64,000 bases of DNA from Prorocentrum cordatum (GCA_963575745.1 CAUYUJ010017821.1:159489-223488), one strand, 5' to 3'. Counted from the stretch's first letter, positions 44,186 through 62,536 are shown. Notes: generated by a model not told the origin, from the sequence alone. Made by a program: numbers and translations.

Positions 44186-44439
44186 GTAGGATGTCTGGTA
44201 AAACGGATGGATCTCCCCGCTTCCAGAACTGGCGCGGGCTTCCACTTGCGGTTCCCTTGCTCCTGCCCTTGCCTCTTTGCTTGCCCTTTCTCTCTCCCTC
44301 TCTCTTCACCGCCGCTTCGCGGCTCAAGCCTTTTCAAGGCCAAGCTGGGGGTCGGCCTCAGGTGGCCTAAGGCCGGGCCCCGAGACCGGGGCCGGAAGAC
44401 CTTCGCCCGAGTTCGGGCGCGAAGGGGGCGCCCGCGGCC

Positions 44440-45462: not shown

Positions 45463-45485
45463 GGGAGGGGAGGAGACGGAGAGCA
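45463..45485 (-). other. Polypyrimidine tract where a polypurine tract is expected
   Basis: Sense strand just upstream of the 3' LTR reads CTCCGTCTCCTCCCCTCCC. Plus-strand priming in this class normally uses a purine run at this place, so the tract is on the opposite strand from expectation. Confidence 0.5.
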
Positions 45486-45841
45486 TAGCCGCGCAGCCGT
45501 TAGGCTCTTCAAAGGCCGCGCGCACGACTGTTTGCAAGAAAGAAAACAGTGCGTACAGTCTGGCCTAACACCAGACTGTAAGGCGAGTTTCCTCGCAAGG
45601 CATTTCACGCAAATACAAGATAGCCCCTTCGAACGATGAAGGGCTATCGGCTCAGTTAGAGGTAAGCCAAACAGGCCATACCTCACCGAGCAAATATGTA
45701 TTAAGGCAAAGAGCCTGAGTCATACAAAGCCGGCTCGTTGCCAGGCGTGAAATGTAAGGCTCGTTTCCGAGCAACTAGAAGGGCGCCTCTATAGTAGGCG
45801 CCCATGCTGGCAAATTGGACCGCGGGGGCAACAAGGACAGA
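45486..45841 (-). other. 3' untranslated region of the LTR element
   Basis: No frame after the RNase H end. It nevertheless contains two perfect hairpins (45583-45596 and 45759-45772) and one decayed copy (45733-45746), which is direct evidence that the hairpins occur outside coding sequence. Confidence 0.7.
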
Positions 45842-46249
45842 CTAAAATTGATTAGACTTGGGTTTGTCTCTGTCCTCGGGACCCCGAAAGGGAACAAACT
45901 GCTTCACGTCATACTTGAATGACTGAGTGCCTGACATCACTTCCAGAAGCAGCTCCCGATCGATGCTTCCCTTTGTATGCCCGTCTGCGGTCATATCCCT
46001 AGTATCACACCACTGCACGTTATGTACTATACCTATATCCATGAGCTCACGTATCCAACTGATGTGTCCAAGCAGAGTCCGCTCTGTCGGTATCTTAAGA
46101 TCCTTGCTTGATAATGATTTATAAACGGACTCAGCGTCTATGGTAAGAGATACTTTGATGGCTAGGCCTCCAACTTCACGCATATTAGTTGTCGTGGAGT
46201 CAGAGCTCCTGCCTTGAGCTCGTGGAGAGTGATGAGCGTAGGGTAACAC
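45842..46249 (-). CDS. Pol fragment: RNase H C-terminal part
   Basis: Contains REVGGLAIKVSLTIDAESVYKSL (an RNase H Asp) and WCDTRDMTADGHTKGS, the W..T..M.AD..TK ending typical of Ty1/copia RNase H. It cleaves the RNA strand of the RNA-DNA hybrid. The frame is displaced from the preceding fragment near 46195. The last residues end KPKSNQF, about 380 bp from the LTR. Confidence 0.75.
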   Translation of the reverse strand: MLPYAHHSPRAQGRSSDSTTTNMREVGGLAIKVSLTIDAESVYKSLSSKDLKIPTERTLLGHISWIRELMDIGIVHNVQWCDTRDMTADGHTKGSIDRELLLEVMSGTQSFKYDVKQFVPFRGPEDRDKPKSNQF

Positions 46250-46830
46250 TCATCGAGGTTATGCGCCGCTGCGAGTGCCTCCGCAGCATAGCTGGACCTC
46301 ACCTGCAGTCGGTGTGATTTGCATAGTCCGTCACAGAGGTGAGCGACGGACTTGCCTTGAGGCGAGTTTCCTCGCCGTAGTACATTTGCCCCGCGTATGC
46401 CGTAGCCCTTGGTCTCATCCTCCTCCTCCACGGTAAGCTTCCGATGCCCCGAATCGCTGTGGATGTCAACTTCATTCGTCGGCTTCACCCGAGGGGAGGT
46501 GATGCGTTTCGGGCTGCTGATCAGCTTTCGCGTCACAGCATTCAGGCGTCTGACTTGCAGATTGGTGGGCTCTTGGATTTTCTGGAGAGAGACCACATAT
46601 ACCATGAGCCAGATTTGAGTAAGAAGGGCATGGGCGAGGGCTCCTCGCAAGCTGACGAACATGTCGGTAATGAGTTTCGTGGCTTTGGCATCGGCCGCCG
46701 CTCCTGTAAGTTCTGGGTGTGTGATAGGACGTAGTTGTTTGATATACTCGTCCTGATCCATAATCACATCCCCTTGATCATTCTTAGTGTAGCGAACGGC
46801 GCAGTTCGTGCATGTGTGTTTAGCTTGCAT
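46162..46830 (-). CDS. Pol fragment: RT connection and RNase H N-terminal part
   Basis: NCAVRYTKNDQGDVIMDQDEYIKQL corresponds to the stretch after RT in copia elements (gIrY...i..DQ..Yi..L). VDIHSDSGHRK gives the first RNase H Asp and SYAAEALAAAHN the Glu; HELKAG follows. The frameshift from the RT fragment lies near 46845 and the one to the next fragment near 46195. Includes hairpin 46362 in the xGNxP frame. Confidence 0.75.
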   Translation of the reverse strand: MQAKHTCTNCAVRYTKNDQGDVIMDQDEYIKQLRPITHPELTGAAADAKATKLITDMFVSLRGALAHALLTQIWLMVYVVSLQKIQEPTNLQVRRLNAVTRKLISSPKRITSPRVKPTNEVDIHSDSGHRKLTVEEEDETKGYGIRGANVLRRGNSPQGKSVAHLCDGLCKSHRLQVRSSYAAEALAAAHNLDECYPTLITLHELKAGALTPRQLICVKLEA

Positions 46831-49352
46831 TTGCCAAACACCTTTTCGACACGCTGTACGTAGTCGTCTATATTTTTCTCTAGGCCAGTCATGTTAATAT
46901 CATCGACATGTTTTGCCGTTAGCAGATCTTGGCTGAATTCAAATACAGGGTCATAACTGGTCGGTGTAAGACCCATAGCTCGTGTGGTCGTACGGAGTTT
47001 GAGAGAGAACGCTCTTGGAGCATCCTTTGTACCCGTTCCTGGTTTGAGGCATCTGAGGCAGTGTCGGCTTTCGTCATAGGATGAGAAGCCGGGTAGTGTA
47101 CGAAGTACCTGGGCACTTCCCGGTGGAAGAGTGAAGCAGACCATGCGAGTTTCCTCGCCTGTGGCATGGGCAAGTTCCTCACAGGTCAAACCCTTGAGGA
47201 ACGCCTTGCCGATATCCATGGATGCTAAGATCCACTCTGGATGGCATGCCGCCTCACTTGCCAGGAGTCTTTGGGACTGCCTTCGGGCGGTTCCCGAGAA
47301 TGTTTCCACATCGAAAGCCTCAGTATCCATAAATCCGCGAAGGACAAGTCTGAGACGAATGGTTTTAACGTTCTCGGTACCCACCTTTACAAACTTCCAC
47401 TTGTATACATACCTGGATGTCATGATGTTGGAAGCTTTGGATAGATCATACATCTCAAAGCATCGGTTGTCAATCCAGATTTTGAGCTCAGTATACAAAG
47501 CTTCACTAACCTCCTTTGGGTGTGCTGCTACGTCGGCTTTGGTCAGTAGATCATCTTCTTTAACGACCACAGCACGTTTAGCAGCAGAGGATACATATAC
47601 TCTCATCGTTGCAACCATATCGGTGTCGAGCTGTGCAAGTTGAGTCTGATCTAACACTATTTTTGACATTTCTGATGTAAAACATAACTCAACGTAAGGA
47701 CCATATTCATCACTATCAAGAGAGTAGCTCTCGCCAGGTGTGGTTGAGCAGAGAGAGACTATACAGGACTCTCGTGGTTCAGGCTCGTCTCCGAGCGTGT
47801 CCGATGACATGGTATCTTCTTCCTCCACAAATGCTGAAACCAAAACACATTGGTCAGGCAGCATGGTTGTTGGGACGCAGTAAAGATAATCGTCGGTAGT
47901 CGTCGTAGGATGAAGGTCCATACGTAGCTCGTTGTACCACTCGTCCAGCATCATAGCTTCGATATTATGTTCCTCATTTTCCACATAGATTGTCGACAGA
48001 CGGCCTTCACTCGGCGATGAAGCACCCGGGGTGTCTGGAGGAGGCCTGTTTCCAGGCGAATCGTGTTCTCCAGACGTGTTGCTTGAATGCTGATGTTTAG
48101 CTAGGTCGTCGTGAAATCCTAAGGAAGGGACACGTGAAGTCAAGCATTGGATGAGTCTGGAATGAGTGCTACCAGTGATCTGAGAAATGTTTAGGCCGGT
48201 GCCCACACACTCGTAGTAGTGGAAAGCCGGGCTGATATCGTTGTCATAGTGGATCAGCGTAGACCCGGTGGCGTACTTTACTGCAGGTAGGCTTGACACA
48301 CTTTTGGCCAATCTAACTGCCACTACATGTTCTACTCGAAAATAGTTTCGTACGAGATACTGTAGTGCTAGATGTACGCGCGGGTGAAACTTGCTGTCGT
48401 CTGAAAGATTGAGGTTTCCCTTGTAATCGGGGATATAGCCGAAAACTTTGGCAGGTTTCCCTGCGCCGAGGTGTGCCACATATGTAAGGACGGTTTGCAT
48501 GGCCATATTATCCATGCCAAGTTCCCGTGTGAGGAGACATTCAATGTATAGTGTGTGACGAGCATCAGGATACATCGCAATTACCTCACGAGATCCTGCC
48601 TTGACAACAATATGTCCTCTTTCAGGCACATTACGGATCACCGGGAATGGGCCATTCCAGCCTCCATGGTCGTCCTTGGTGGCAGTGGGTCGGTGGTAAT
48701 CGACCAAATCCCCTGCAGAATAAAGGCGAGCACCATCAGGAGTCGTTTTAGCCCTAAGAGCCCGATTTGTCTTGGCCACAGCAGTGGCCTGAGTTATAGC
48801 TTCTAGGCTGGCTTCCCTTACGCGACGTTCTCGTTCGTGTCCTGAAGTCTCGGGTCCCTTGGGAAAGTCAAGGGTATCGAGATCAGGGAGGAAGGAGGGC
48901 TGACGTCCTGTGTGTGCTTGGCATGGCGATACTCCGTTATAAAACGTAAAAACATTAGTAACGAAGATGCCTTCCGCCAATACTCTAGTGAATACAACAG
49001 GGATGTTGTGTCTATTCAGTTCTTCCTCAATCATGTGGAGGACGCCTCTGAGAATGCCGTTTCGTGACTCAATTGAAGTCGCGTGTTGGCCAGGTGCTCG
49101 GATGCGAAGTTCCGTGCCCTTATTGGCCATCATGGCTTTAGCGGCATCGTTATTCAGGGCGCCTTCTCCGTCTGAGTATAAGACTGTGAAGGGTCCGTGA
49201 TAGGCAATCCAGCAGTAGTGGTAGGCGTCAATGATAGTGTCTCGTTCTCTGTCGGAAATTTCTAGGCCTGCTGCATGGCGAATACAACGATCCATGATAT
49301 GAAATATGGTCCGTTTTTTGTAGAACATGAGGTTCATTTCTCCTTCGTCGAG
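46764..49352 (-). CDS. Pol fragment: integrase core and reverse transcriptase
   Basis: Upstream of the LINE fragment this frame is the direct continuation of 50965-52529. Integrase core acidic residues: FHIMDRCIRHAAG (Asp), TVLYSDGEG (Asp) and ATSIESRNG (Glu); then WNGPFPVIRNVPERGHIVVK, the C-terminal domain. RT follows: RYVYKWKFVKVG, ILASMDIGKAFLKG (motif A), CLKPGTGTKDAP and AKHVDDINMTG (motif C, HVDD for the usual YVDD). These enzymes copy the RNA and insert the cDNA. The 5' 220 bp of the open frame are LINE sequence and excluded here. Confidence 0.88.
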   Translation of the reverse strand, partial: LDEGEMNLMFYKKRTIFHIMDRCIRHAAGLEISDRERDTIIDAYHYCWIAYHGPFTVLYSDGEGALNNDAAKAMMANKGTELRIRAPGQHATSIESRNGILRGVLHMIEEELNRHNIPVVFTRVLAEGIFVTNVFTFYNGVSPCQAHTGRQPSFLPDLDTLDFPKGPETSGHERERRVREASLEAITQATAVAKTNRALRAKTTPDGARLYSAGDLVDYHRPTATKDDHGGWNGPFPVIRNVPERGHIVVKAGSREVIAMYPDARHTLYIECLLTRELGMDNMAMQTVLTYVAHLGAGKPAKVFGYIPDYKGNLNLSDDSKFHPRVHLALQYLVRNYFRVEHVVAVRLAKSVSSLPAVKYATGSTLIHYDNDISPAFHYYECVGTGLNISQITGSTHSRLIQCLTSRVPSLGFHDDLAKHQHSSNTSGEHDSPGNRPPPDTPGASSPSEGRLSTIYVENEEHNIEAMMLDEWYNELRMDLHPTTTTDDYLYCVPTTMLPDQCVLVSAFVEEEDTMSSDTLGDEPEPRESCIVSLCSTTPGESYSLDSDEYGPYVELCFTSEMSKIVLDQTQLAQLDTDMVATMRVYVSSAAKRAVVVKEDDLLTKADVAAHPKEVSEALYTELKIWIDNRCFEMYDLSKASNIMTSRYVYKWKFVKVGTENVKTIRLRLVLRGFMDTEAFDVETFSGTARRQSQRLLASEAACHPEWILASMDIGKAFLKGLTCEELAHATGEETRMVCFTLPPGSAQVLRTLPGFSSYDESRHCLRCLKPGTGTKDAPRAFSLKLRTTTRAMGLTPTSYDPVFEFSQDLLTAKHVDDINMTGLEKNIDDYVQRVEKVFGKCKLNTHARTAPFATLRMIKGM

Positions 49353-49365
49353 CCAGTTACCAGGA
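49353..49365. repeat. Nested LINE target-site duplication, left
   Basis: CCAGTTACCAGGA, identical to 50952-50964. Confidence 0.95.
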
Positions 49366-50951
49366 TGATGATGATGATGAAGCGCCTTGAAAGGTCGGTC
49401 CTCCCATAACACAAACCTGAGAAGCCACCAATACGCCAAGTGCGTAAGGTAAAGAAAGAAAGAAAAGGGGGGAGAGGCAGGAGAGGAAAGAAGCGGAGAA
49501 TAGGTAAAGCCCAACCCAGGATTGAAACCCATGATACTGAAAGAAATCATGAATGAAAGACTGTCCAATATCCCAAATGAATCCCACCACTAGGTCCCTC
49601 TTGTGTTGAATGAAGATGAGAAACATAATGAAAGAGGTGCCCAAATTTGACTAACAAGATCTTGAGTGACAATTGGGTCCCAACCTTGGAAGCACATGGT
49701 CCCAAGGTCTAAAGTAAGAGGTGAAGAAAACTTCCATTAAGTCCCATGAAACCCATTGAACATGAGTAGTGGTCAAGGCTGATATATATGACTAAAAGAG
49801 AATCTGAATGATGAAACTGAATGTCCCAAGCACGCAATGAGCCCAGAAGATACGGAGGCACGCAAGATGAACTGTCAAAGCTGAATGAGATCCCAACCAT
49901 GAGAACCCACACCAGGCATGTCGAGGAATATGGAATATGGGTGAATTCAAACTAATATGGAGAACGCAAGGTGGCTGGAATTGTTTATAACCTTTTGTAT
50001 TTTGCAAACCACCATCGTAGAAATACATGCAAGAAAGACTGAGAGAGACTGAGAGTCCCCCAAGAAGCCGCAGGCCCACGCACCACGAACACCAGAAGAT
50101 TCCAGTCTGAGGGAGTCCCAGGAATGCTCTTCAGCCGTACCTCCAACGCCACTTCTCCACGAAGAAATCTCCATCCCACCAGTAATCGGACAAGTACCAC
50201 ACAACCGGGTGAGGCCAGCCCGAATCGGGATCGATCCACGTGTCAAAGTACTCCGTTTTCCACACTTTGGTGTAGACTTCGTCTACTTCGCAGTAGTTCC
50301 ACATTCCGCCCGAGCCATGGGTCCACTTGAGACGCTTCTTGGCAGCAAGCTTGACTGGAAGGCAGCGTTTAGCCATCCACTGGAGTTGGAGGTTTCCCAG
50401 CCGTCTCAGACAAGAGCTCCAGAAAGGATTTGAGGCAAAACGGCTACTGACCCGCAACAAATTCTGTCCAAGGAACTCTGCGAACCCTCTCATCGGGACC
50501 CCGAACGTTGACATACAGACCGTGATAGCCGCTGTCCCGGCAAGCTTTGAAGTATGGGATTTTGCACCAGTCATATGTGAAATGAGGACCACCAAGGCCC
50601 GTCGGTATAAGAAACCGAGCCGGCAACTTGACCACCCTTCGGAATAGTAGCGGGGAGCAGTGTGAAAGTGCCTCAAGATCACGTTTAGACAGGAAGCAGA
50701 CTTTGCGGTTAGACCTGCAAAGATTCCCCTGAAAGATAACGTAAGGATCCGAAACCGTGTGATGTAGCATACCGAAAGCTTGAGCCCGAGACTGCAGGAG
50801 CCGACAGGGGTCAGGGGAGAGAAGGGGCCCATCCCCCCAAACCTAGGGGAGGAAAACAGACGCCGAGGCCCAAGGACTCAGAGGCTACCTGAGGAAGAAA
50901 GGATTGTTGCGAAGCCACGGTATCCCTAAGATCGCATGAATCGAGCGGGTC
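49366..50951 (-). mobile_element. Nested 5'-truncated LINE copy (1586 bp)
   Basis: Aligns along its whole length to 9547-~11170, including the (CAT)n 3' tail, and is cut off at GGGTCCCA on the 5' side. Flanked by a perfect 13-bp duplication. With one duplication copy it adds 1599 bp (533 codons), so the pol frame resumes in register, although stops inside the insert still break it. Frames 50131-50832 and 50444-50770 correspond to the LINE distal ORFs. Confidence 0.95.
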
Positions 50952-50964
50952 CCAGTTACCAGGA
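50952..50964. repeat. Nested LINE target-site duplication, right
   Basis: CCAGTTACCAGGA, identical to 49353-49365. Confidence 0.95.
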
Positions 50965-52529
50965 AGGCTCACCGAGGGTAGTGTTGAGTTTCCTGGACGT
51001 TCCCATGCTCTGCATTCCCGACAGGCATCGCAAACTTCCTTGATCATGTTCAGTCGAACGTTATCAAGCCCCACTTTGTCGAGGATTAGCCTCACCTTTG
51101 GTTCCTTCGCATGATACCATCGCAGATGCAGTTTTCGGAGTTCCTTTTTCACGACATGAGGTTCGTGACTACGGAGACTCTGTAGACTGCGTTGGATGTC
51201 GAATCTCGTCCAATCGGGTAGTCGAGGAGCCCCAGAGCCGGTAGAGGCAAGAGGGTTCCTTGTAGCTCTCCGTAGTTGGTCCCCTGTATTGACAGCATCT
51301 GGAGGTGGTGGTACGCCTTGTAGGCGGCCGCGACGGGCCGCTACCTGTGGCGCTTCGCTAGAGGACGCAGAAGGCGTGTTTCCACGCTCGGGGGCGTCTC
51401 GTAGCATGTCGTAGCTGCTGGCACCAGATGTCGGATCGACGTTACCGAAGGATCGTGGTCGTGGTGGCCTGGCGTGTGCGCCTTGGCGGCCACCTGAAGC
51501 TGAAGCTTGGCCCTCACCAGGTTTAGGTAAGGGTTTCCACCAAGCTGGCACGGTTTTGCCTTCGGGGTCGTGGTCGTCTGGAAGTTTAAATGGTTCAGCA
51601 AAACGACATTTACCAGGTTCGGTATCGAGGTGGTTCTTAACACCCTTGCTTCTCGTAAGATCCCTCTGGCATGCGGGACATGGCCAATATACAGAGATGG
51701 AATCATGATATTTACACTGCGTAGGGTCTCTGTTATGGCTAGGACTGTCCTTTCGGACGTTGTCGATGCATGCCGGGCAAGTGGCCACCTTTGGGATGAT
51801 ACGATCACCGATGCGTCTCATACCTTCGCCTGGTTCAGCTTGATCGGGAAGGTCTGCAGGGTAAGCATGTGCGGTACTTATAGGCGCGTTTCCGCGCGTA
51901 GTGTCAATGGCTTTCGCCAGATAAACGGCTTCCACGAAGGCAGACTGCAGTCGTCGAGTGTGTTTTTGTGCCAGTGAAAGCTCTTTATTGCACGGTTGTG
52001 CGTGCACATGCTGACCGTTGCACTTGAGTCGCTCAAAGGGTTTAAGGATTGTCTCGTCGTTGCTGGTGATATTTGTCGGCTTCTTAATATAGTCACCAGC
52101 CGTATCTTTGAGTCCCGTAGCACATTGGTCAATGCGTACGGTTGTAATGTGTGGTCGGTTGGCAAGACTCTTCCATGGGGAAATAGCATCCACCCCTGTT
52201 CCTGTAGGTTGTTCGCGTATAAACCACCTCCGAGCGTCATCTTGGGTTACAGCAATTTTACCACAAAAGTTATGTGTGGTAAATCTTCTTTGTGGTGCTG
52301 TTCCCAAGTGTTGTAGTTGACTTTGTAGTTGTAGTAGGATGGTGGTCCTGTGGTGCGGCAACTGGGTTGTAGTATGGCAACTCGTACGTAGCATATAGCG
52401 AAGTAATGATCTATAACCCGCTGCACCGAGGGGTCTCCCAGGTCGACATATGTAGTCTTGTCTAGGTTGCCTCCTGAGGAGAGTCCCCTTGAGAAGGCAA
52501 GCTCTGAGATACCACCCTCGCCGCCACAA
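50965..52529 (-). CDS. Pol fragment: CxxC linker and integrase zinc-binding domain
   Basis: The open frame begins in register near 52265 with FCGKIAVTQDDARRWFIREQPTG, continues through CPACIDN and YWPCPACQRDL, a Pro/Ser-rich linker with two in-frame hairpins (51374, 51884), then LHLRWYHAKEP and CDACREC, the HHCC domain of integrase. The frame runs to the LINE junction. A 1-nt frameshift near 52265 separates it from the fragment at 52247-53020. Confidence 0.8.
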
Positions 52530-53020
52530 AGCTCCAACATATCCACGCAGTTGTTATGACCATAGCATAGTGTAGCAACTATGCTGTATATGTTAGCGTG
52601 TGTGTCGGGCATAGATGTGGGGAGGGTAAGGAACAGGTCATCGTCCTCATCGGAGCTTATCAGCTCAATAGGGACGTCAGTACTCCAGGTTGCCATAAGA
52701 TCCTGTCCGAGTCCTGACAAGTCGTCGCCGCAATCATCGTTTCCGTCTTCAACGTGCTTTTTAATGCGGCGAGGCTTGATGCCTGCTTCCTTTTCGGCTT
52801 TGAGCCTTTCCTTCTGCTTGATACGCGATTCTGTGGGTAAAACTTGCTCATCTTGTTCGCCGGTCTGTGTGCCCATTGTCGTGGTTGAGTGGGTACATGC
52901 GTCAATCGCCAGAGTCGGGAGGGGGAGAGAACAGTCATCTATGATGACGCGTCGAGGTTTCTGTGGTGATTGAGTAGGCTCGTTTCCGAGCAAGACCGGT
53001 TCCTCGGGTTGCCAATACAA
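52247..53020 (-). CDS. Pol fragment with methyltransferase-like segment
   Basis: After an acidic linker (GNDDCGDDLSGLGQDLM) comes VDMLELCGGEGGISELAFSRG, which resembles motif I of Rossmann-fold methyltransferases, TYVDLGDPSVQRVIDHYF, and VAILQPSCRTTG, which could correspond to a C5-MTase motif IV with a Cys. No motif IX/X is visible, so an intact enzyme is doubtful. Position between protease and integrase is unusual for copia elements. Includes hairpin 52978. Confidence 0.55.
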   Translation of the reverse strand: MYWQPEEPVLLGNEPTQSPQKPRRVIIDDCSLPLPTLAIDACTHSTTTMGTQTGEQDEQVLPTESRIKQKERLKAEKEAGIKPRRIKKHVEDGNDDCGDDLSGLGQDLMATWSTDVPIELISSDEDDDLFLTLPTSMPDTHANIYSIVATLCYGHNNCVDMLELCGGEGGISELAFSRGLSSGGNLDKTTYVDLGDPSVQRVIDHYFAICYVRVAILQPSCRTTGPPSYYNYKVNYNTWEQHHKEDLPHITFVVKLL

Positions 53021-53133
53021 CCGAGTGCTGATGTTGGCAACCCCTGCAGGTAGTGGTGCATGCCAATCATACCCTGTTGGTTGATCGGTAACTGAGATAT
53101 CCTGAATAACCGCATTGGTATCCAGGTTAATTG

Positions 53134-53752
53134 TTACACGTCGGATAACTTCAGGACCATTTCGGTCCTCCCTTGTTGGTCGTCACGTAGTGACGGATGT
53201 TGTGGCCCGTACGTGTATAAGTATTTAAATATACAGGCACGTTTCCGTGCGTGGTGGTGCTCCCCAGGATGTTGTCGTTCAGATGACGGATGAGTGTAGT
53301 ACGTGTCTGAGCTCGCCATTCAGCATGCCGTACTGTATGGCCGTACCAATCCATTCATGTTGTGGTATTGCCTGTTTGCATGTACACGCCCACAGCTTCG
53401 AGCTAATCGGTATTGATGACGCTACCTGCATATAAGTACCACTCGGTGTACTGTCTTGCATATTGAACCGAATACCGAAATGACACAAACGCATCCGTAT
53501 TACTGACAACTTAAGATCTTCTAGGGTATCACGTACTGGAGATAACTTCCAAACATATCCTGGTGGACCAAATATTATGATTTTCATACGGAGTTTCTTG
53601 GCTTTTATCAACAGGTTCTGGATACGTGACCAATGTGGGGCCACTCTCTTTCCTGGAGTTCGTACATACCAGTCACCCGGGGTACTAATCCATATGAGAG
53701 TGTAATCTCCACTGATCACCGCACCCAGGTAATCTGTGCCCACGCTTGTCAT
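53134..53752 (-). CDS. Pol fragment upstream of the methyltransferase-like segment
   Basis: 53279-53752 reads GDYTLIWISTPGDWYVRTPGK, LLIKAKKLRMKIIIFGPPGYVWKL and IRMRLCHFGIRFN; neighbouring frames continue WYGHTVRHAEWRAQTRTTLIRHL and THGNVPVYL with hairpin 53238. Frame changes near 53300 and 53150 indicate decay. The FGPPG motif and its location just before the motif-I-like segment suggest it belongs to the same domain, but I cannot name it. Confidence 0.5.
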
Positions 53753-53952
53753 AAGCTCATTGTGGGAAATACGATCACAGATATAACCTCGGGTGCGGAG
53801 GTCGGCGCAAGCCTCTCTCGTATCTTCAATGACAAAAGCCCTCTTACTAAGGCAGCCCTCTTACTAAGGCAGGTTACCCCGCTGTCCTTGTTACCCCCCG
53901 GCTTTTCGGCCAACAGGCAAGACGACGAGGGGGCGACGTCGCCCTGCCATCT
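53753..53952 (-). other. Gap between ORF4 and pol
   Basis: No useful frame. Contains a 17-bp direct duplication (CCCTCTTACTAAGGCAG at 53839 and 53855) and an imperfect hairpin (53869). Confidence 0.6.
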
Positions 53953-56900
53953 TCAAGATAAAGAAGATGTGCCTGCAATGTCTGCCAGCATCTGGGCTTC
54001 CCTCAGATGCTGGAGCTCAGCACTGCAGCGCGCCGTGGCCTCAGAGGCGGATTGCTCCGCAAATGCTGTCAGCATGGATGGATTATCCATCAGCTGTTTC
54101 AGCACGCCTTTGGACCTGGCGTCGCTGACCGTCTGCAGCTCACGGTTAGTGTATCCCATCACTATCTTCCGGCGGGACTGCACAGCGTCCATGGGTACAC
54201 TTCCACCATGCTGGGCCAGTGTCCTGGCAACGAAGCAATCGAACGTCTCAAGATCGTCGATGCTGTCGCCTCGCATAGTGGCCTTGGCGAGCGTCTCCAT
54301 CAACCCCTGAGGCAGGTTTCCCTGCAATTGCTCGCGCTCCTGCGCCGGGGTCGGCTCGCCTGTCAGCACTGTCTGGAATGACGTGCTGCTTGAGCTCGAG
54401 GCGGGTTGCCCCGCAGCTCCAAAACAATCACACCTGATCGACAGATGCCCTGACGGCAACTTCGTCGTCGGCATGATCTTGGAGCCCTCAGGGAGCTCCA
54501 TTTTGACCTGCCCCTTACCAGGGAATATCAGCTTCTCCTGGCCTCGCTCAAGCACGATGATCGTGCGTTTGTCCTGCATACTATCGAGGCCTAGGATGGC
54601 TGGCAGGTCCTTGCCACAGCCTGACGCAATGTTCGTCTTGTATGAGTCGAGCTGGGCCGATCCCTGGTACTCGCAGGCAATACTGAACGTGCCTACGGTT
54701 TCCGCTGGGGCCGACCCTTCTCCCACTCCGTTGATATTCAAACAAGAGCGGGGCTCGAACGTACAAGTACGGCCATGTGCCTCGGCAGCCTGGACGAACT
54801 TGCGGCTCGTGTTCTCGCCCATGATATAGATCTTCGAGCCGACATCGATGAGGATGGAATTTCCACCATCATCCAAGAACGTCTTACTCGGCTGCTTGAT
54901 GTGCACCGTTTCTGAAGTGTCGGCTGTGTTGTTAGGCGGGTTTCCCAGCAGCCCAGTCGTACTCCCTGGCGGGTTACCCCGCGTGACACTGGCATGCGAC
55001 CTGCTTTCGGCCATGCGCGCCAGGTCGATGTACTGGAAGTACGACACGTGCTGGGCGTGGTCGCCACGCTCCTCCCGCCAGTTGGCATACTCATCACGTA
55101 TGCTCTTATACTGCTCGCGGGTCGTGCGCCTCGTCAGCGTCCGGCACGAGTGAAGGGCAATGTCCTGCAGCCCCTCATTCGTGATGTGATCCCGGTATTG
55201 CAGCCACTCCTCGAACTCCTCGTTCGTCGCTGTGATGTTGACGGCCCTGGCTGCCGTTGCTGCTGTTGCCACTGAGGAGTCTGATATGTCAAGCGACAAA
55301 CTATCAGTCTCAGGATTGTCGGCATCAAGCATAAATGTTGTGTGCGCATTATCCATCTGATTCTGGAAATGTCGAACACGCAACTCACGCAGCTGGTCAG
55401 GGTCCAGTGCCATCTCAGCCCCGCCTCCACTCTGGGGAGACATCTGAGGAGTATTAGGCAGGTTTCCCTGCTGAGGCGCCGTCATCGGGATAAGCTGATC
55501 AAAATATCCCGTCTCCATCGGCGGCCTTACCTCCTCTGGCAGGTTTCCCTGCTGTTGGGGCTGAGCTGTCTGCATATCTAACATCCTAGCCGTCATCTCC
55601 TCCACCATGCTCCTCAACTCCCGCAGCTCCCTCGCTGCTTGCTCAGGAGTCTTTATGAAGGAGCCGGTCCACGGAAATGATGACGCTGTGATGCCAGGTG
55701 CTCGGCAGATAGCACATGGTGGCTGCTGAGGATCTCCCTCACGCTGATTTGTGACATGGCCCACCACATTTGAATTCCACCACCCCTCATGGAACAAGTG
55801 ATTACACCTCAAACGGCAAACACTTTCCCTGGGCTGAAATTCTTCGAGGCATACCGCACAGGTATCTTCCATCCCCGTGAAAACCTCTACATCTGCTGCT
55901 CTGGGATATACCCGCCGCTGTCTCTCCAGTACGGTCTCGGAGGGCATGAAGGCTGCTGGGGGAGCCCCCGTTGGATCCAGCACCTCCGGCACTCCGGCAT
56001 TTGGCATGGAGGTGGTAGGAGTCACAGCGGGCGAGTTCCCTCGCAAAGGTGAGCCCCTATTTCTCACAACCTCAAGTGCAGCTGCACGTGACTGATCTCG
56101 TACACTTTGCCCGGCCTGCCTTCTCCTGAAGCATGCCTGTTGAGTGTGGTAAGTCTGCCTGATGTAGTCAGGCACGCCCCTACTGCCAGACGATATTGAA
56201 TGGGCAGCGGGCTGGACAGCCACCTCTGGCGATGTCGGTGAAGGCATGAAGGCCATGTGCGGGTACATAGATTGGTCACTGCAGCGCACATTAGTGAGGC
56301 TATGCATCTGATCCGCCAATTCGCGAACAAATTTGTTCGGAACTCTTGACCCATCAGGGTATAATGGCGGGTTCATCTGCGCTGGTGGTGGCCTCTGGCC
56401 CTGGGACATGCTCGGATGAGCATTGAACGCCGGGATGAAGGCTCGTTGCCGAGCAGGATCCCTTGGGTTGGGACCCTCAGGCTCCCAGGACCAGGCCGGC
56501 CTCCACCTCTGCCCACTTGGGTGAGGCAGATTATGGCTCTGCACCTGCTGCACAGCGGCCGCCACTCTTGCACGGTAGTCATCAGGCACACCAGCCCGAT
56601 GGTGGCTTGGTGTGCCAGGCAGGTTTCCCTGCTGACTCGTTGGAGTGCCGGGCGGCATCATGTTCAGGAGAGCTGTGCCATGCTCAGCCCTAGCCGCAGC
56701 AATCCTCTCCATGAGGGTGCCGTTTGTGGCAGGGCGGCCAGGAGTCCCGAACGGAGACTGTGCAGGTGGTGTGGCCATTGGAGTCATGCCCCTCGGAGTG
56801 TGCATGCTCTGCGAGGGGCTTCCCTGCATTTGTTCAAACCGAGCAGGTCCGTTTATAGGCAGGTTTCCCTGCATGGCCTGACGGTTTCGCGTCGCCATGG

Positions 56901-58395
56901 CGGACATTGCTCCCTGGCCCGCGGCCCAGGGGTCCTGCTGATATAACCTGTCCGCCAGTTGCTCTACCTGGTCAGGGTTCAGCGCGGCCGCTATCTGGTC
57001 CAGGTCCGAGGTGCTGATGGCCTGCCAAGACACGGCACTGGGCCCTTGGCTTGGGGCACGGCTTGGAGCCGCGCTCCCGGCCTCACTCTCGGTGATCATG
57101 AAGATCCGGTGGATCTCAGGCTGGTTTCCCAGCTTGGTGGGACTATAGTGGTCCCCAACTTCCCTGTGGAGGTAGACCATGGGAGGGTCGACGCCCTCTT
57201 GGTCTCGGGACCATTGGTATTTAACGCTAGCACTGCCAACGTTAGCCCACCTGTCAGGGGCAGACATCATGGAAACGGGGACTCGCGCCCAGCGATTCCC
57301 CAGATACTCTGGATTACGCCAGTGCTTTCCCGTGGCAAGGTCCTCTACATGCGAGATGTAGTACGGTTCAATGATACCGTTGTTTCCCTCGGACAAGAGG
57401 ACTCCGTTGTCGGACCAACAGAACTTCATACCATCTTGTATGGCCTTGTGCCAATCTACGAAGATGATGATGTCTGAGTCTGGGTCCCACCCACTGTTCA
57501 CGGCACGGCGGCGGACCGTCGGCACGAAGTGGATGTGCGACCGACCTGTCCCCTGTTTCTTCGTATTGTGCTCAGGTCTACAGGACAGACCGTGCCACAT
57601 AATGCCTTCGAAGGCATGCCACCGAGTGCCATGCATGGCGACTTCGGGGTATGGGGCCGGTCTCCCGGCAGGTTGGTCGCACAGTACAATGTAGTTGTAC
57701 AGCGACCATGGAGCTTTCAGTGTCCATGAATGCCCCTGAGAGGCGCGGATGAAGATAGCGGGCTCACCGGAGTCCCGCATCAACACCTTGAACTGAAGGC
57801 GCTGTTTTTCTTCTCCGTCTGGTTCACGGACATGAACAACTTCCATCATGATGGCTGCCAGTTGGTCAACCGAGCGAGCAAATAGCTGCTCATTGATGAC
57901 TTTGGCCTCGTCAGATCTTGGATTATACCCATCGTGTCTCGATTTTCCTGTGTTCCACGGATACTCATTCACGAGCTCCACGAGGTTAACCCAACCATCA
58001 TGATCATCGAAGGAGTCCAGGCCCCACACGGGATTGTGTGGTTTGTCTGGCGCATGTCTGCATATCCTGCTGAGAGCTTTACTCAGCTGCTTGAGAGTGC
58101 GATTGGATGTAGGAAGGATTTTGGCTTGCCTGCACTTCTTCATGAATGCCTCATCCACCGAGCGTATCGGTGGGAGCTTCCGCAGAGCAAGTCTATCCCT
58201 GATCACACTCGGAGTCCCACTAGTGAAGGACGTGTCACCCGGGTGGTGCAGCTGATCCACGGGCGGGTTTCCCCGCATAGGAACCTCTGTCGCTGAAGAG
58301 GCTGCGGCTCCTGAAGAAGAGGAAGCTGCAGCGGCAGCGCCTGGCGGGTTTCCCCGCGGTGATCCGCGACTGGCGCTGCCCCTGATCGTCGGCAC
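53953..58395 (-). CDS. ORF4: Tpt1/KptA-like RNA 2'-phosphotransferase, RING finger and retropepsin-like polyprotein
   Basis: 1480 codons without a stop; first in-frame ATG at 58278 (MRGNPPVDQ), so entry may be from ORF3 by frameshift. Residues ~100-350: Tpt1/KptA domain with LSKALSRICRH (R113-H114), IRASQGHS (R217, H222), MHGTRWHAFEGIMWHGL, SHIHF, DWHKAIQDGMKFCWSDNGVLL. This family removes the 2'-phosphate left at RNA splice junctions, using NAD+. Residues ~846-901: RING-H2 type, CAVC, CNHLFH and CAIC. Residues ~1175-1300: protease-like ILIDVGSK with ILGLDSM downstream (DVG replaces D(S/T)G). Linkers are Pro/Gln-rich and carry many hairpins. The domain set is unusual for a retrotransposon. 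Confidence 0.88.
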   Translation of the reverse strand: MPTIRGSASRGSPRGNPPGAAAAASSSSGAAASSATEVPMRGNPPVDQLHHPGDTSFTSGTPSVIRDRLALRKLPPIRSVDEAFMKKCRQAKILPTSNRTLKQLSKALSRICRHAPDKPHNPVWGLDSFDDHDGWVNLVELVNEYPWNTGKSRHDGYNPRSDEAKVINEQLFARSVDQLAAIMMEVVHVREPDGEEKQRLQFKVLMRDSGEPAIFIRASQGHSWTLKAPWSLYNYIVLCDQPAGRPAPYPEVAMHGTRWHAFEGIMWHGLSCRPEHNTKKQGTGRSHIHFVPTVRRRAVNSGWDPDSDIIIFVDWHKAIQDGMKFCWSDNGVLLSEGNNGIIEPYYISHVEDLATGKHWRNPEYLGNRWARVPVSMMSAPDRWANVGSASVKYQWSRDQEGVDPPMVYLHREVGDHYSPTKLGNQPEIHRIFMITESEAGSAAPSRAPSQGPSAVSWQAISTSDLDQIAAALNPDQVEQLADRLYQQDPWAAGQGAMSAMATRNRQAMQGNLPINGPARFEQMQGSPSQSMHTPRGMTPMATPPAQSPFGTPGRPATNGTLMERIAAARAEHGTALLNMMPPGTPTSQQGNLPGTPSHHRAGVPDDYRARVAAAVQQVQSHNLPHPSGQRWRPAWSWEPEGPNPRDPARQRAFIPAFNAHPSMSQGQRPPPAQMNPPLYPDGSRVPNKFVRELADQMHSLTNVRCSDQSMYPHMAFMPSPTSPEVAVQPAAHSISSGSRGVPDYIRQTYHTQQACFRRRQAGQSVRDQSRAAALEVVRNRGSPLRGNSPAVTPTTSMPNAGVPEVLDPTGAPPAAFMPSETVLERQRRVYPRAADVEVFTGMEDTCAVCLEEFQPRESVCRLRCNHLFHEGWWNSNVVGHVTNQREGDPQQPPCAICRAPGITASSFPWTGSFIKTPEQAARELRELRSMVEEMTARMLDMQTAQPQQQGNLPEEVRPPMETGYFDQLIPMTAPQQGNLPNTPQMSPQSGGGAEMALDPDQLRELRVRHFQNQMDNAHTTFMLDADNPETDSLSLDISDSSVATAATAARAVNITATNEEFEEWLQYRDHITNEGLQDIALHSCRTLTRRTTREQYKSIRDEYANWREERGDHAQHVSYFQYIDLARMAESRSHASVTRGNPPGSTTGLLGNPPNNTADTSETVHIKQPSKTFLDDGGNSILIDVGSKIYIMGENTSRKFVQAAEAHGRTCTFEPRSCLNINGVGEGSAPAETVGTFSIACEYQGSAQLDSYKTNIASGCGKDLPAILGLDSMQDKRTIIVLERGQEKLIFPGKGQVKMELPEGSKIMPTTKLPSGHLSIRCDCFGAAGQPASSSSSTSFQTVLTGEPTPAQEREQLQGNLPQGLMETLAKATMRGDSIDDLETFDCFVARTLAQHGGSVPMDAVQSRRKIVMGYTNRELQTVSDARSKGVLKQLMDNPSMLTAFAEQSASEATARCSAELQHLREAQMLADIAGTSSLS

Positions 58396-59786
58396 CCAGG
58401 CGCCCCTAGACGCAGCACCTTCGTCGGACCTTTTGGAACGGGCCGCCGCCGGCGAAGCTGGCGCAGGGGCATACCCTGTGCGCTCGAAAGCTGCGGCCCT
58501 TTCGCAATGGAGCTGCTGCGACTAGGCGGACGTCTCCGTTCCTCCACAGGGTCCTGAGGTTGCTGCTTGGGCTCAGGCGCTTGTGCAGGAGTTGCGCCAA
58601 TCGGCGGCCTCGGAGTTGCAGACCGAGGCACCTCCATCTGCACATCTGGCCCAGGGTCCTGAGAGCGCGCCTTCGGTTTCGCCTCCGAGGACGACTTCGG
58701 TGCAGGGGTTTCACTCTTAGCCTTCGAAAGTAGTGGGAGTGGGGGTTTTCTAGCCCCCTTCATGTAAATCTTGTTGGAATCCTCCAACATCTGGCGAGTT
58801 GCCTCGCGTGCGCGTTCGTCTTCTATCCGCATGCGCTCCTCGTCCTCCGCCACACGTTGGGCCTTCTGTTCATCCTTGGATGTCAGTTCTGGTTGCTGGG
58901 ACTGACTCGAAACGCCGGGCGAGTTTCCTCGCATTCCAGGAAGACTAAAGAGCGCGTCTTTTTCTTCCTGGGTCATGGGCACCAGTCCCCTTGGAGCCGT
59001 AGGAGGTTCATCCTCTTCGTCTTTCGGATCCAAATGGCCCAAGATCCCGAGACGGCGATTCACTTCTGCGATCTCGTCCTGTGTCATCGGGATAAGTTGC
59101 GGATGGCCCTCTTTATGAAGGGTTTTGCCCCTGTTGGGGCTCAGGCCTTCATTGTTGCCAACGGGGCATCCCGGCCTGTGGTTCTGGAACGGCTCGGAAC
59201 AAGGTCCGCAAGCTGCTTGGGGCCTATACTGCTTGCGAGCCGCGATGATGTCTCGCAGCTGAGTCCGCGCTTCTTGAATTTCAGGGCGGCGGATGTTTGT
59301 TGCAAGCTGATATCCTCCGCGGATAGCTTTGCCCTCAGTGTCCCTATAGGCAGGGTTGCCCTTGCCGAAAGCCGAGTGTTCCCCTTTTCGGCGTCTTGGG
59401 TCATTATACGGAAGCAGCTGGCCACCTCTCCTAAGAGCGTGTTCTTTCGGGCCAGCCTGCCTCCACTCACGAGGAAGCCGAGCCTGTGGATGTGGCTCTC
59501 CTCTGACGCGCGTATGGGAACGAGACCTTCTGGTGTTCTCATCAGAAGAGGCTGCCGAAGCAGCCTGAGCGGCAACCGGTGGAGGCGCCTGCGGAGGCTC
59601 CTGTGCGATCCCAGGTGGATCGTCCGACAGAGGCAGGTTTCCCTGCTGGCTGGAGCTTGGCGCAAATGGCGCTTGTGCCGATGGTGATGATGATTCAGAC
59701 TCGTCAGGATCGAAGTCAACCTCTTCCTCACCATTAACTTCCATCATGAGGATTGTAACTTCATCCTCATCTAGTCCCGCAACCAT
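58203..59786 (-). CDS. ORF3: charged Pro/Ser-rich linker protein of the LTR element
   Basis: From MVAGLDEDEVT (ATG at 59786). Acidic start, then Pro/Ala-rich and Arg-rich segments with GNLP and GNSP hairpin-encoded peptides, LIPMTQDEIAEVNRRLGIL and LVPMTQEEKDALFSLPGM (two related short motifs), and a coiled-coil-like DEQKAQRVAEDEERMRIEDERARE. Genuine sequence probably ends near 58395 where ORF4 takes over in another frame; the tail beyond is a shadow of ORF4. A Gag-region structural or linker role is plausible; no domain recognised. Confidence 0.55.
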   Translation of the reverse strand: MVAGLDEDEVTILMMEVNGEEEVDFDPDESESSSPSAQAPFAPSSSQQGNLPLSDDPPGIAQEPPQAPPPVAAQAASAASSDENTRRSRSHTRVRGEPHPQARLPREWRQAGPKEHALRRGGQLLPYNDPRRRKGEHSAFGKGNPAYRDTEGKAIRGGYQLATNIRRPEIQEARTQLRDIIAARKQYRPQAACGPCSEPFQNHRPGCPVGNNEGLSPNRGKTLHKEGHPQLIPMTQDEIAEVNRRLGILGHLDPKDEEDEPPTAPRGLVPMTQEEKDALFSLPGMRGNSPGVSSQSQQPELTSKDEQKAQRVAEDEERMRIEDERAREATRQMLEDSNKIYMKGARKPPLPLLSKAKSETPAPKSSSEAKPKARSQDPGPDVQMEVPRSATPRPPIGATPAQAPEPKQQPQDPVEERRRPPSRSSSIAKGPQLSSAQGMPLRQLRRRRPVPKGPTKVLRLGAPGCRRSGAAPVADHRGETRQALPLQLPLLQEPQPLQRQRFLCGETRPWISCTTRVTRPSLVGLRV

Positions 59787-61420
59787 CGCCTTCTTCTTCT
59801 TCTGATGTAGAACTACCAATGATGATGGCCATTGGCGTATCCGGTACAGGCAGGTTTCCCTGCATAGCCGGCGTCTGTGCGTCGCTCGGCTGCCCCGGGG
59901 TAGGAGGCGCTGTTGTCGGCTCAGGCTCGTTGCCGAGCACAGGCTGCCCGGCAATGTTGCGCATGGCCGTATGGTTTGGCCACATTCCCACCGCCTGGAG
60001 ACCCCATCCTGGCGGAGGAAGATCATGACCGCGCATGGCGATAGCCATTTCCAGAGCATTGCGCCATCTACCACGGGAATATATCAGGTGTCTCTGCACG
60101 TCCTCAGGATGCACGCTGTCAATGAGAGTCAGAGCTGCCAACAACAACTCCGAGCGACCACAGGCGTCGGTATCCTGCAGTACCATGCTGTCAGCTTCGA
60201 TGTGCTCTTGACTCTCGGGATACGGTGTGATAAGTATTTCATGCATCCTCATGAGGGTCTGCAGGAGAGTGCGTGGTCCGTATTCACCTGGAGCAAGCGA
60301 ACCAGGGGGTATAAATGGGGTCTCTGGTTCACCTGCAATGAAAGCTTGAACGAACGCCTGAGACTCCATATCTATTAAGTCTTCAGTAGTTTGGGGATAG
60401 TCCCCCATCAGAGTAGGCCTGTTTCCAGGCGGGATTTCGGGGGGAGGTTGGAGGTTGCGTTCAACCTCGGAAGGCGAGGCCTCTACAGTGATGTCCTCGT
60501 CACTGCTTTCGTAAGCCATGATGTTACCTGGGTTCCCGAACATCCAGTCGAAGAAAGAAAGAGGCAGGTTTCCCAGCGTACCGTGATCCACGGGAGTGAG
60601 CTCGTTATTGCCAATAACGAACCGGCGGGCGTACTCGAGGTAGTACGCGTACAATCCATGACCATACGCCTCGAGCTCGTCGACGTTGTCCACGCAACTG
60701 ACCCAAGTGTAAAATATCTGCTCCATGGCTTCAAAATCCTGGAGGCTCAGATACTCAATGAATGGTTCACTTGAGCCAAAATGGACTTCGGTCGACCTGC
60801 CCTTTCCACTTCCCTTCGCTGGACAATCTCGCACAAGATGGTCGGTACTGTCACACTCATGGCATTTAAGAACCTGGCCGTCTCTACCTCGCGGGTTTCC
60901 CCGCCTACCCTTGCCTTTTCCTGAGGTCTCTCTACGGCCCTTGCCACGGCCCTTTCCCCCAAAGAAGATCTCATCATATTGTTCATCTGAGAGCCTCTGG
61001 AGAAATGCCGCGATGCCTCGTCCGTTCAACCTCCGACGACCACGCTTACCTTTACCTTTTCCCTTAAAGCTCCTCCGTATCCTCCTTCTAACACGACGCA
61101 CTGGTTTTCGTGTGAACCTCCTCCACCTTCGTTTGGCCTGTTGTAATAACCAGAACAAATGTTCAGCACGCTGATTGTCATTATCCATATTCATAATATC
61201 TGACCAATCTAAGGCTTCAACACCGTCTGATGATATAGTATCTGTGTCGGTGCCGGAGTCGAAATCCTCGTCTCCCAAGTAGGTGGATACACCGTCGGTT
61301 AGGGGGTTTGATTCACCCCATAAGGAACGGTGTGGTTGTGGCTCTCTGGAAGGAGGGCTGGTTGCCCAGCTTGGTTGTGATCGATCTCCTGCTAGTAGAG
61401 CAGTGGATTCTCCAGGATCA
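59767..61420 (-). CDS. ORF2: Gag-type zinc-knuckle protein
   Basis: The frame is open from about 61420, overlapping the end of the Gag ORF by ~28 nt, with no early ATG. Strongly basic region RRFTRKPVRRVRRRIRRSFK and GKG repeats, then CHECDSTDHLVRDC, a CCHC knuckle that binds RNA in Gag proteins. It then reads through a spliced-leader-like stretch (EVHFGSSE) into an acidic, helical C-terminal two thirds with LLLAALTLIDSVHPEDVQRHL. The last part carries GNEP and GNLP hairpin peptides. Likely the nucleocapsid portion plus an added domain. Confidence 0.7.
60770..60791 (-). other. Spliced-leader-like relic inside ORF2
   Basis: Sense strand CCGAAGT then CCATTTTGGCTCAAG. The last 15 nt match the 3' part of the dinoflagellate spliced leader exactly; the 5' part differs by one substitution and one inserted base. 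Confidence 0.6.
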
Positions 61421-62536
61421 TCAGCCCATATGCTTGAGGGCCCGTTCCCAGGCTGGGCTTAGTCAAGGTAGTGTAGAAATTTCCACTACCAGATCCCCTT
61501 CCCCTTCCAAATACAGATCCTATATTACCAGGAGACCGTTCGGATAGGTGGCCTATCGAACGCATCCTCTCCAGCAACTCATCATACTGTTGTTGTGTTC
61601 GGGGCATTTGGTGATTGAGTGGCTGTAAGAGTTGCATGGCTCGCTGGTTGCCGACGCCTAAGGCGCGGAACAAGATCGTGGTTAGTAGTTGGAAGTTGGG
61701 AAGGTCAAATCCCACCGACTGTGCCTCAAGTCGGGCCATTTCGAATCGGGTAAGGGTGACATCGATTCGTTCCCCGTGAGGCACGTGGAAGTCGATGAGT
61801 TGTGTGCCGGAAGTGAGCTGGCGCTCATCTTCCAGGCGCTCGAACTTCATGCTTAAGAGGAACATGATGTAGGTCACTGGGTCGGTGTGGACCCCATCGA
61901 TGTCAGCACCATAATTTATGATGTCAGGCGGTACCCTCATGGCGAGTGTCCTCGCTAGGCCACCTAGGCCGCGTTGTATGGCGGCCGCTTGGGCCTGTGG
62001 CGTCATACGTCCGCTTGTGACGTTGAGCCATGCGTTGACCTCATAAACGTACTCACGGAAAGGTACGTTGCCTTGAGGGTCCCAATATGGGCCATGTGTT
62101 TGCCCATCGGTGCTGTTGTCTCCACGACGCATGTGTCCGATTGCTGCCCCCAGCGCGAACCATATGATAGCGAAGATAACCAGCCCAAGGCTGTGTAGAT
62201 AAGGGCGGTTATTGGGCGCGTTGCCGCGCTGGGGTAGCGCCTTGTCGAGTCTTCGAGGCGCTCTATCTGGCGGATCTCTCCGCCCGTGCTTCAGGTATTG
62301 CGCTTTTGGCTCGTTGCCGAGCGGTTGGTGGTAGCGCAATGATGAAGCGTATATGGTACCAATGTCGTCGTCTAGACGTCGTACCTCTCGTGTCGCTTCT
62401 TGCTCTTGGGTAGATCCTCGTAAACGTACTGGGAGTGATAGCGCAGGGTGGTAGGTGGTCACGAAGATCGTGCCGAAGAGTATGAGGCTAAGAAGAGCAA
62501 GAGCTGACCACACGAGTGCGGCCAGCTCCGCTACCA
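61392..62536 (-). CDS. ORF1: Gag-like protein with two hydrophobic segments
   Basis: The frame starts at the primer-binding site (TTG) and is closed just inside the LTR; the first ATG is 62132. The region after that, MRRGDNSTDG to RTQQQYDELLERMRSIGHL, includes WLNVTSGRM, VPPDIINYGADIDG, FLLSMKFERLEDE and FHVPHGERIDVTLTRFEM, a helical capsid-like composition. Upstream, still open, are ALVWSALALLSLILFGTIFV and LGLVIFAIIWFALGAAIGH, two good membrane spans. If translated they would anchor Gag in membrane; without an ATG their use is uncertain. Two hairpins (62216, 62309) lie between them in frame. Confidence 0.65.
62521..62536 (-). promoter_or_regulatory. Primer-binding site, initiator tRNA-Met-like
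   Basis: Sense TGGTAGCGGAGCTGGC directly follows the 5' LTR. Its complement ends CUCCGCUACCA, like the 3' end of a tRNA with the A1-U72 pair typical of eukaryotic initiator tRNA-Met. Confidence 0.75.

Follow-up and report, generated by a model that had tools for sequence, protein, structure and literature searches.

Why would a retrotransposon carry the same small hairpin dozens of times along its length? This question is raised by a stretch of 64,000 nucleotides from the dinoflagellate Prorocentrum cordatum (GCA_963575745.1 CAUYUJ010017821.1:159489-223488; hereafter, the window), in which a Ty1/copia-type element flanked by long terminal repeats (LTRs) lies on the minus strand at 45195-62804. 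We observed that the internal region of this element, termed family 1, contains 36 perfect GCNNG....CNNGC 14-mers, 34 with a GNRA loop and two with a GACA loop (61942 and 54215), and that all these perfect hairpins are on the sense strand and none is in the LTRs. The patterns described below suggest that they are cis-acting recognition signals of the sense RNA. Their most likely binder would be a Gag-type protein that the element itself encodes, with RNA selection and packaging as the purpose, a reading to which we give about an even chance.

Paired hairpins on the sense strand of the family 1 element

The hairpins extend from 45583 to 62322, exactly the span given in the initial annotation, which had found 32 perfect hairpins where there are 36. 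To pick sites on sequence alone, with pairing not required, we scanned for GC..GG.RAC..GC. The sense strand yielded 39 sites, 34 of which are Watson-Crick paired (36 when G-U is allowed) versus 2.4 expected at a rate of 1/16 (binomial P 5e-36), while the antisense strand of the element yielded none, in keeping with the single orientation proposed at the outset. Window positions 1-45179 gave six sites on one strand and one on the other, none of them paired. Perfect GCNNG....CNNGC 14-mers number five in the 45.2 kb left of the element, none with a GNRA loop, and zero in the 1.2 kb to its right.

With the core pattern GC..GG..AC..GC, the element contains 41 sites, 39 of them with a GNRA loop; pairing is imperfect at five. 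Stem lengths cluster tightly at 5 bp, as GNRA-loop stems of 3, 4, 5 and 6 bp number 5, 3, 34 and 2, respectively, when the repeat inserted in the element is excluded. Furthermore, 5-bp GNRA hairpins with other stems are rare: the inserted repeat has one, with the stem CTACT, and the remainder of the window another. A C directly follows the stem on the 3' side in 37/39 sites. The two middle stem pairs occur in all four Watson-Crick orientations, and loop base 2 takes all four letters between sites. At 54047-54060 the closing G-C pair is replaced by A-U, a compensated change. Covariation was scored on 30 sites (25 distinct) from the total of 41, the other 11 being excluded because they repeat the letters of sites kept: 97.6% of the cells pair versus 76.9 (standard deviation 2.7) in shuffles, and the covariation score is 0.511 versus 0.095, with 0/500 shuffles as high. 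The compensatory changes of the middle pairs described in the initial annotation are thereby confirmed. A search of Rfam returned no family at gathering score.

The sites are given below with their state in the aligned copies of two groups: clade A (7 copies, about 95-98% identical to the window element) for sites down to 52978, and clade B (11 loci, roughly 91-96% identical outside the LTRs, covering the pol region and the 3' end with 1.5-kb flanks) from 51884 on.

62309..62322, minus, GCTCG-GCAA-CGAGC, identical in 7/7 clade A copies
62216..62229, minus, GCGCG-GCAA-CGCGC, 7/7 copies
61942..61955, minus, GCGAG-GACA-CTCGC, non-GNRA, in conserved gag sequence and may be chance, 7/7 copies
61440..61453, minus, hairpin with one U-G pair, U-G kept in 7/7 copies
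61357..61370, minus, GCTGG-GCAA-CCAGC, 7/7 copies
60891..60904, minus, GCGGG-GAAA-CCCGC, without 3' C, within a protein motif common to the relative P0002, 6/7 identical
60564..60577, minus, hairpin with a U-U mispair in the window, paired in 7/7 other copies
60417..60430, minus, GCCTG-GAAA-CAGGC, 7/7 copies
59925..59938, minus, GCTCG-GCAA-CGAGC, loop base 2 changed in 1/7 copies
59850..59863, minus, GCAGG-GAAA-CCTGC, 6/7 identical, one with two stem bases changed
59633..59646, minus, GCAGG-GAAA-CCTGC, deletion through the hairpin in 1/7 copies
58919..58932, minus, GCGAG-GAAA-CTCGC, 5/5 copies
58794..58807, minus, GCGAG-GCAA-CTCGC, 5/5 copies
58344..58357, minus, GCGGG-GAAA-CCCGC, 5/5 copies
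58263..58276, minus, GCGGG-GAAA-CCCGC, 5/5 copies
57656..57669, minus, GCCGG-GAGA-CCGGC, 4/5 copies identical
57120..57133, minus, GCTGG-GAAA-CCAGC, 4/4 copies
56859..56872, minus, GCAGG-GAAA-CCTGC, 4/4 copies
56619..56632, minus, GCAGG-GAAA-CCTGC, 4/4 copies
56441..56454, minus, GCTCG-GCAA-CGAGC, 4/4 copies
56031..56044, minus, GCGAG-GGAA-CTCGC, loop GAAA in 4/4 other copies
55539..55552, minus, GCAGG-GAAA-CCTGC, 4/4 copies
55458..55471, minus, GCAGG-GAAA-CCTGC, 3/4 identical, one with a 1-nt gap
54969..54982, minus, GCGGG-GTAA-CCCGC, 3/4 identical, one with the last loop base changed
54936..54949, minus, hairpin with a U-C mispair in the window, paired in 4/4 other copies
54401..54414, minus, GCGGG-GCAA-CCCGC, 5/5 copies
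54312..54325, minus, GCAGG-GAAA-CCTGC, 5/5 copies
54215..54228, minus, GCCAG-GACA-CTGGC, non-GNRA loop, 5/5 copies
54047..54060, minus, GCGGA-GCAA-TCCGC, closing A-U, stem kept in 5/5 loci, first loop base changed in one
53869..53882, minus, hairpin with one G-U pair, gap starting inside the hairpin in 4/5 aligned copies
53237..53250, minus, GCACG-GAAA-CGTGC, outside the listed open reading frames (ORFs), 4/5 copies identical
52978..52991, minus, GCTCG-GAAA-CGAGC, 2/2 copies
51884..51897, minus, GCGCG-GAAA-CGCGC, 11/11 clade B copies
51374..51387, minus, GCGTG-GAAA-CACGC, 11/11 copies
48451..48464, minus, GCAGG-GAAA-CCTGC, orthologue L020:2527 (GCGGG-GAAA-CCCGC), 11/11 copies
48044..48057, minus, GCCTG-GAAA-CAGGC, without family 2 counterpart, 10/11 copies
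47783..47796, minus, GCTCG-GAGA-CGAGC, aligned with L020:3165 (GCAAG-GCCA-CTTGC), 11/11 copies
47145..47158, minus, GCGAG-GAAA-CTCGC, without 3' C, in a conserved reverse transcriptase motif, 10/11 copies
46362..46375, minus, GCGAG-GAAA-CTCGC, orthologue L020:4617 (GCGTG-GCCA-CACGC), 10/11 copies
45759..45772, minus, GCTCG-GAAA-CGAGC, downstream of the listed ORFs, 11/11 copies
45733..45746, minus, near-hairpin (C-A and U-G), downstream of the listed ORFs, identical in 11/11 copies
45583..45596, minus, GCGAG-GAAA-CTCGC, downstream of the listed ORFs, 11/11 copies

Most core sites (35/41) are within listed ORFs, and 26 of the 41 share one codon phase, four of these where two listed ORFs overlap. 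The shared phase would suit repeats at the protein level (xGNyP and AGxPA linkers) whose coding is palindromic by chance. However, all three phases occur among the sites, the amino acids at paired codons vary while pairing persists, and this explanation is contradicted by sites 45583, 45759 and 53237, which lie outside the listed ORFs and have the same structure as the ORF sites. We regard it as extremely unlikely. The only two GACA-loop hairpins (61942-61955 and 54215-54228) both read ARTLA in the ORF frame and are possibly protein-driven coincidences.

Conservation among copies and between element families

Hairpins changed less than their surroundings in the copies of the element. In clade B, hairpin columns without loop base 2 were changed in 3/1430 cells versus 4072/59202 (6.9%) outside, and, within the sequence 3' of the ORFs, in 0/429 hairpin cells versus 535/7073 others. 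Fixed differences in this clade numbered none in 140 hairpin columns versus 217 in 5396 others, and the mean divergence of its 10 hairpins was 0.0019 versus 0.067, below all 5000 random sets of 14-mer blocks. In clade A, 17/2118 hairpin cells were changed versus 1356/49576 outside. Sites 60564 and 54936 are decayed in the window copy itself, being paired in 7/7 and 4/4 other copies, respectively; without them, 6/1975 cells were changed, and a block test on 27 sites gave 0.0059, with 0/5000 random sets as low.

A second family of elements (L020 and L044, of which ~13.5 kb were read) encodes a pol protein 63-70% identical to that of family 1. It contains 27 sense sites of GC..GG..AC..GC, of which 26 are paired and the remaining one has a G-U, and a single antisense match of the core pattern, which is unpaired. 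Its loops are GCCA (13), GACA (4), GTCA (4), GAAA (3), GCAA (2) and GCTA (1); GNRA is thus present in only 5/27, the rest being mainly GNCA. The letter following the stem varies (C 11, A 6, G 6, T 4), and the pol hairpins of this family use all three codon phases. With loop bases 2 and 3 left out, its eight pol-side hairpins were changed in 0/1764 cells versus 1759/100330 (1.75%) outside; this comparison drew on 20 other loci and 19 copies, 18 of the 19 pol loci being covered over pol and 1.5 kb on either side. L046 and L047, at first taken for a fourth family, proved to be family 2.

In a third family (L045, partly masked, 5.3 kb), we found five GCNNG-ATCGGMA-CNNGC hairpins with a 7-nt loop, one of which has the compensatory stem GCAGG/CCTGC; GNNA tetraloops on stems exactly 5 bp long were absent. 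Since the loops are GNRA, mainly GNCA and ATCGGMA in families 1, 2 and 3, respectively, the three families have the stem in common, while the loop is characteristic of each. The initial claim of a GNRA-only loop consequently stands within family 1 and fails for its relatives.

Aligning the pol proteins of families 1 and 2 revealed three hairpins at the same protein place, all fully paired in both. Site 48451 corresponds to L020:2527, where both families encode AGKPA and a stem A-U is G-C in family 2. Site 46362 corresponds to L020:4617 (LRRGNSPQG versus LRRGHTQAG), with A-U changed to U-A and the loop GAAA to GCCA. At site 47783, which matches L020:3165 beside an alignment gap, both middle pairs are changed and the loop GAGA is GCCA. 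The hairpins at 48044 and 47145 are absent from family 2; therefore, gain and loss occur. Because the three orthologous sites remain paired through compensatory changes, the hairpins look like old, maintained cis-elements, at least in part, rather than parasitic insertions of recent date. The sequence itself shows the architecture, pairing and strand of the hairpins, as well as their family-specific loops, their conservation above background and their orthology across two families.

The parasitic micro-element considered in the initial annotation, here a 15-nt mobile hairpin (GCNNGGNAACNNGCC) inserting into linkers, is weakened by this orthology with compensation and by hairpins far better conserved than their flanks. 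A 15-nt unit including the constant 3' C would preserve the reading frame, as would befit the 26 sites in one phase, and family 2 has local hairpin repeats; extra xGNx peptides in a variable loop of the relative P0020 and the two sites without a family 2 counterpart also fit mobility. Short palindromes tolerated in frame inside proteins are known as Rickettsia palindromic elements and mitochondrial GC-rich hairpins, both of which are mobile insertions. In contrast to these, the hairpins described here are conserved above background and partly common to families. Furthermore, the aligned family 1 copies offer no clean empty site at any hairpin, the gapped sites 59633 (1/7 copies) and 53869 (4/5) each retaining part of it, and sites 48451, 47145 and 46362 align to homologues without insertion. 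Judged by eye, the flanking letters contain no constant target-site duplication. Also telling against a mobile hairpin, matches isolated from others of their kind pair at chance level, as set out below, and we consider this explanation quite unlikely.

Counts were taken over the 4.13-Gb genome. The exact variant GCAGGGAAACCTGCC has 5249 matches versus 3 for its control, the reversed pattern, and the degenerate family 1 pattern 48,759 versus 8,775. When both sides of the third pair are changed from G-C, the counts are 26,520 versus 3,490 for family 1 and 269 versus 72 for the family 3 pattern, these being counts without letters of patterns that also admit non-pairing combinations. When only the first side is changed in the family 1 pattern, which makes pairing impossible, the count is 3,230 versus 1,983, a small excess that fits decayed copies. 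For family 3, the whole pattern gives 631 matches versus 177, the pattern with one side changed 77 versus 67, and one specific paired variant 10 versus 3. Letters were obtained for 98 of the 48,759 family 1 matches, the first places in contig order. Among these 98, 48/54 are paired where at least three same-strand neighbours lie within 6 kb, 5/14 where there are one or two, and 2/30, the chance level, where the match is isolated; the 54 clustered matches stem from two element-like groups, C2 and C15. Among the listed matches, ordinary sequence thus lacks the equal density of hairpins that the initial annotation had named as the finding to speak against it, and the proposed structured RNA is tied to retrotransposons.

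Possible roles of the hairpins

That RNA is the acting molecule, what binds it and that packaging is the purpose are points we infer. Conservation, restriction to the sense strand, many copies, some of them downstream of the ORFs, and the lack of a fixed codon phase together point to a signal in RNA that would be bound many times. Of the six sites in families 1 and 2 that depart from Watson-Crick pairing, three do so purely by G-U in the sense strand. The U-G of 61440, present in 7/7 copies, is kept at the matching C2 and C15 places with other loop letters, and at the places matching 53869 in the same groups the G-U is the same and another loop letter is found. This tolerance of G-U amid differing loop letters favours RNA over DNA. 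Since the stems form palindromes and DNA, too, can have stable GNNA loops, the palindrome could act as DNA, through hairpins of the cDNA during reverse transcription, recombination or integration; the strand-specific loop and 3' C, the sense-strand G-U and the lack of hairpins in the LTRs make such a role very unlikely.

Retrotransposons must pick their own RNA from a cell full of RNA and, to our knowledge, this choice has been little studied outside yeast. As in Ty1, Ty3 and retroviruses, the genomic RNA of an LTR element needs selection by Gag, and purine-rich tetraloop hairpins are known in retroviral leaders. In the proposed mechanism, the cis signal would be the hairpin, present in many copies along the genomic RNA, with its 5-bp GCNNG stem and a loop specific to the family. 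A protein would recognise this loop together with the closing G-C and the outer GC pairs, while the middle two positions would just need to pair. The likeliest reader would be the element's own Gag-type RNA-binding protein, and the likeliest job to package its own full-length RNA selectively and compact it. Loop identity may keep co-resident families apart. Such a family-specific RNA barcode, in which a shared 5-bp stem with a private loop lets each element's own RNA-binding protein sort co-resident RNAs, is a proposal we make tentatively, at rather below an even chance.

Multi-copy dispersed packaging signals have been described for RNA viruses such as MS2 and for the pregenomic RNA of hepatitis B virus, which resemble the present case in having many short stem-loops with a shared recognition motif across the genomic RNA (PMC6281560). 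Enteroviruses are a further example. The element likewise has many copies with a shared loop motif, and their structure is conserved beyond background. As packaging signals, the hairpins would be bound by the coat or Gag protein and promote assembly. Viral packaging signals vary more in their stem, whereas here the stem is exactly 5 bp, its outer and closing pairs are fixed, and the carrier is an LTR retrotransposon.

The same conservation would be expected if the sense-RNA sites served another step, such as translation control, stability, localisation, a host RNA-binding protein or KptA/Tpt1 RNA repair. KptA/Tpt1 and RING domains are indeed present in the polyproteins of both hairpin-bearing families (in family 2, L044:1-5514), a co-occurrence that rests on two families, as the RING-only relatives P0002 and P0003 are known as protein. 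However, the many copies along the whole internal region and downstream of the ORFs suit a stoichiometric, coat-like function better than a single switch, and codon phase is not required, as the three phases of the family 2 pol hairpins indicate. We consider a role in another step unlikely, though well short of negligible.

Several observations weigh against the packaging reading. The conservation cells are not independent, since copies are related by descent, and with all 29 clade A sites the block test gave 0.0117 versus 0.0287, just moderately below background divergence (15/5000 random sets as low). Loop base 2 was changed in 8/164 cells of clade A (4.9%, versus 2.7% background) and in 0/110 of clade B, where the freedom expected for GNRA is absent; that freedom is thus only partly borne out between copies. 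Loop bases 2-3 of family 2 were changed in 2/294 cells, less than the 1.75% background. Family 2 also has local tandem hairpin copies at 18-36 nt spacing; therefore, duplication accounts for part of their spread. The middle ORFs, which change fast, contain 23 hairpins in 7.3 kb (53953-61278), a higher density than in pol, where there are 5 in 3.2 kb and 3 in 2.1 kb; such a difference could also arise simply from new sequence being tolerated there. The putative gag ORF (61392-62537) matched no Pfam family. Finally, unlike the 41 sites along the whole internal region here, the packaging determinants described for Ty1 lie near the 5' end (PMC4974528).

Inverted repeats are abundant in the introns of P. 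cordatum, in introner elements, according to its genome paper, the main text of which makes no mention of hairpin, palindrome, LTR, retrotransposon or copia (PMC10666404). Dinoflagellate introners are introns bounded on each side by inverted repeats, whereas we observed 14-nt hairpins in ORFs or untranslated stretches; with 35/41 sites in listed ORFs, introner identity was rejected. In the literature that could be consulted, subscription papers being mostly out of reach, no such hairpins are described for dinoflagellate or other LTR retrotransposons. If the barcode reading is true, it would be a multi-copy RNA identity code of a sort that we found described for no LTR retrotransposon. A regular, countable, family-specific code available from sequence alone would offer a testable handle, in that swapping the loop should swap specificity. 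The hairpin sets also provide a large natural collection of stems with compensatory changes, and a marker by which the elements of multi-gigabase dinoflagellate genomes can be classified.

The host element, its relatives and neighbouring sequence

Assignment of the hairpin carrier to the Ty1/copia class rests on its 268-bp LTR pair, 99.25% identical, and on a copia-type reverse transcriptase (RVT_2 in ORF 46764-49568, E 2e-8, above cut-off). In its own genome, 40 places scored at 97-100% to the element, the window's own copy counted. The features of the element are as follows.

45195..62804, minus, Ty1/copia-type LTR element, family 1 (LTR pair, RVT_2, genome copies)
62537..62804, minus, 5' LTR, without hairpin of the GCNNG kind
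53953..58395, minus, ORF with a KptA/Tpt1-type RNA 2'-phosphotransferase domain and a RING finger
49364..50958, minus, inserted repeat, without GCNNG-family hairpin, 85% identical to 9552-11176
45195..45462, minus, 3' LTR, without hairpin of the GCNNG kind

The repeat at 49364-50958 is missing from all 11 clade B loci. ORF 61392-62537 is called gag because of its place and its likeness to the relative protein P0002, and a CCHC zinc knuckle scoring below its cut-off was found in ORF 59767-61278. The polyproteins of P0002 and P0003 contain RING and gave no KptA match.

We also searched relatives from other species at the protein level. In 36 proteins, pairable xG[ND]y followed by P/H/Q/L/R numbered 13/25 versus 7.0 in shuffles (10/5000 as high) and, with the next residue unconstrained, 20/73 versus 15.1 (439/5000); the S/T control class was itself high (41/103 versus 27, 2/5000). 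In a second set of 47 proteins, xG[NDHY]y gave 18/68 versus 13.6 (551/5000), with the S/T control again high (19/53 versus 10.1, 7/5000). A 7-bp scan of 83 proteins gave 57/1104 (5.2%) versus 1.5-4.7% in control classes, which is not decisive. Evidence at this level for hairpins in the relatives of other species is weak. No relatives were found in the viral contig, genome contig or phage collections searched.

Two proteins from other species contain scattered similar peptides, namely six DPG[ND]RI in P0047, and three DPG[NDH]RI and one DPGDRV in P0048. Known from protein alone, the DPG[NDH]RI peptides yield, on back-translation, a 7-bp stem that pairs perfectly around a GNNA loop. The P. cordatum gene model P0001 is a cysteine-rich repeat protein fused to a piece 95% identical to the family 1 element and spanning 6% of one element ORF. 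Elsewhere in the window, 33733-44370 contains long overlapping open frames on both strands, with repeated peptides in several phases, and is probably a tandem repeat rather than genes.

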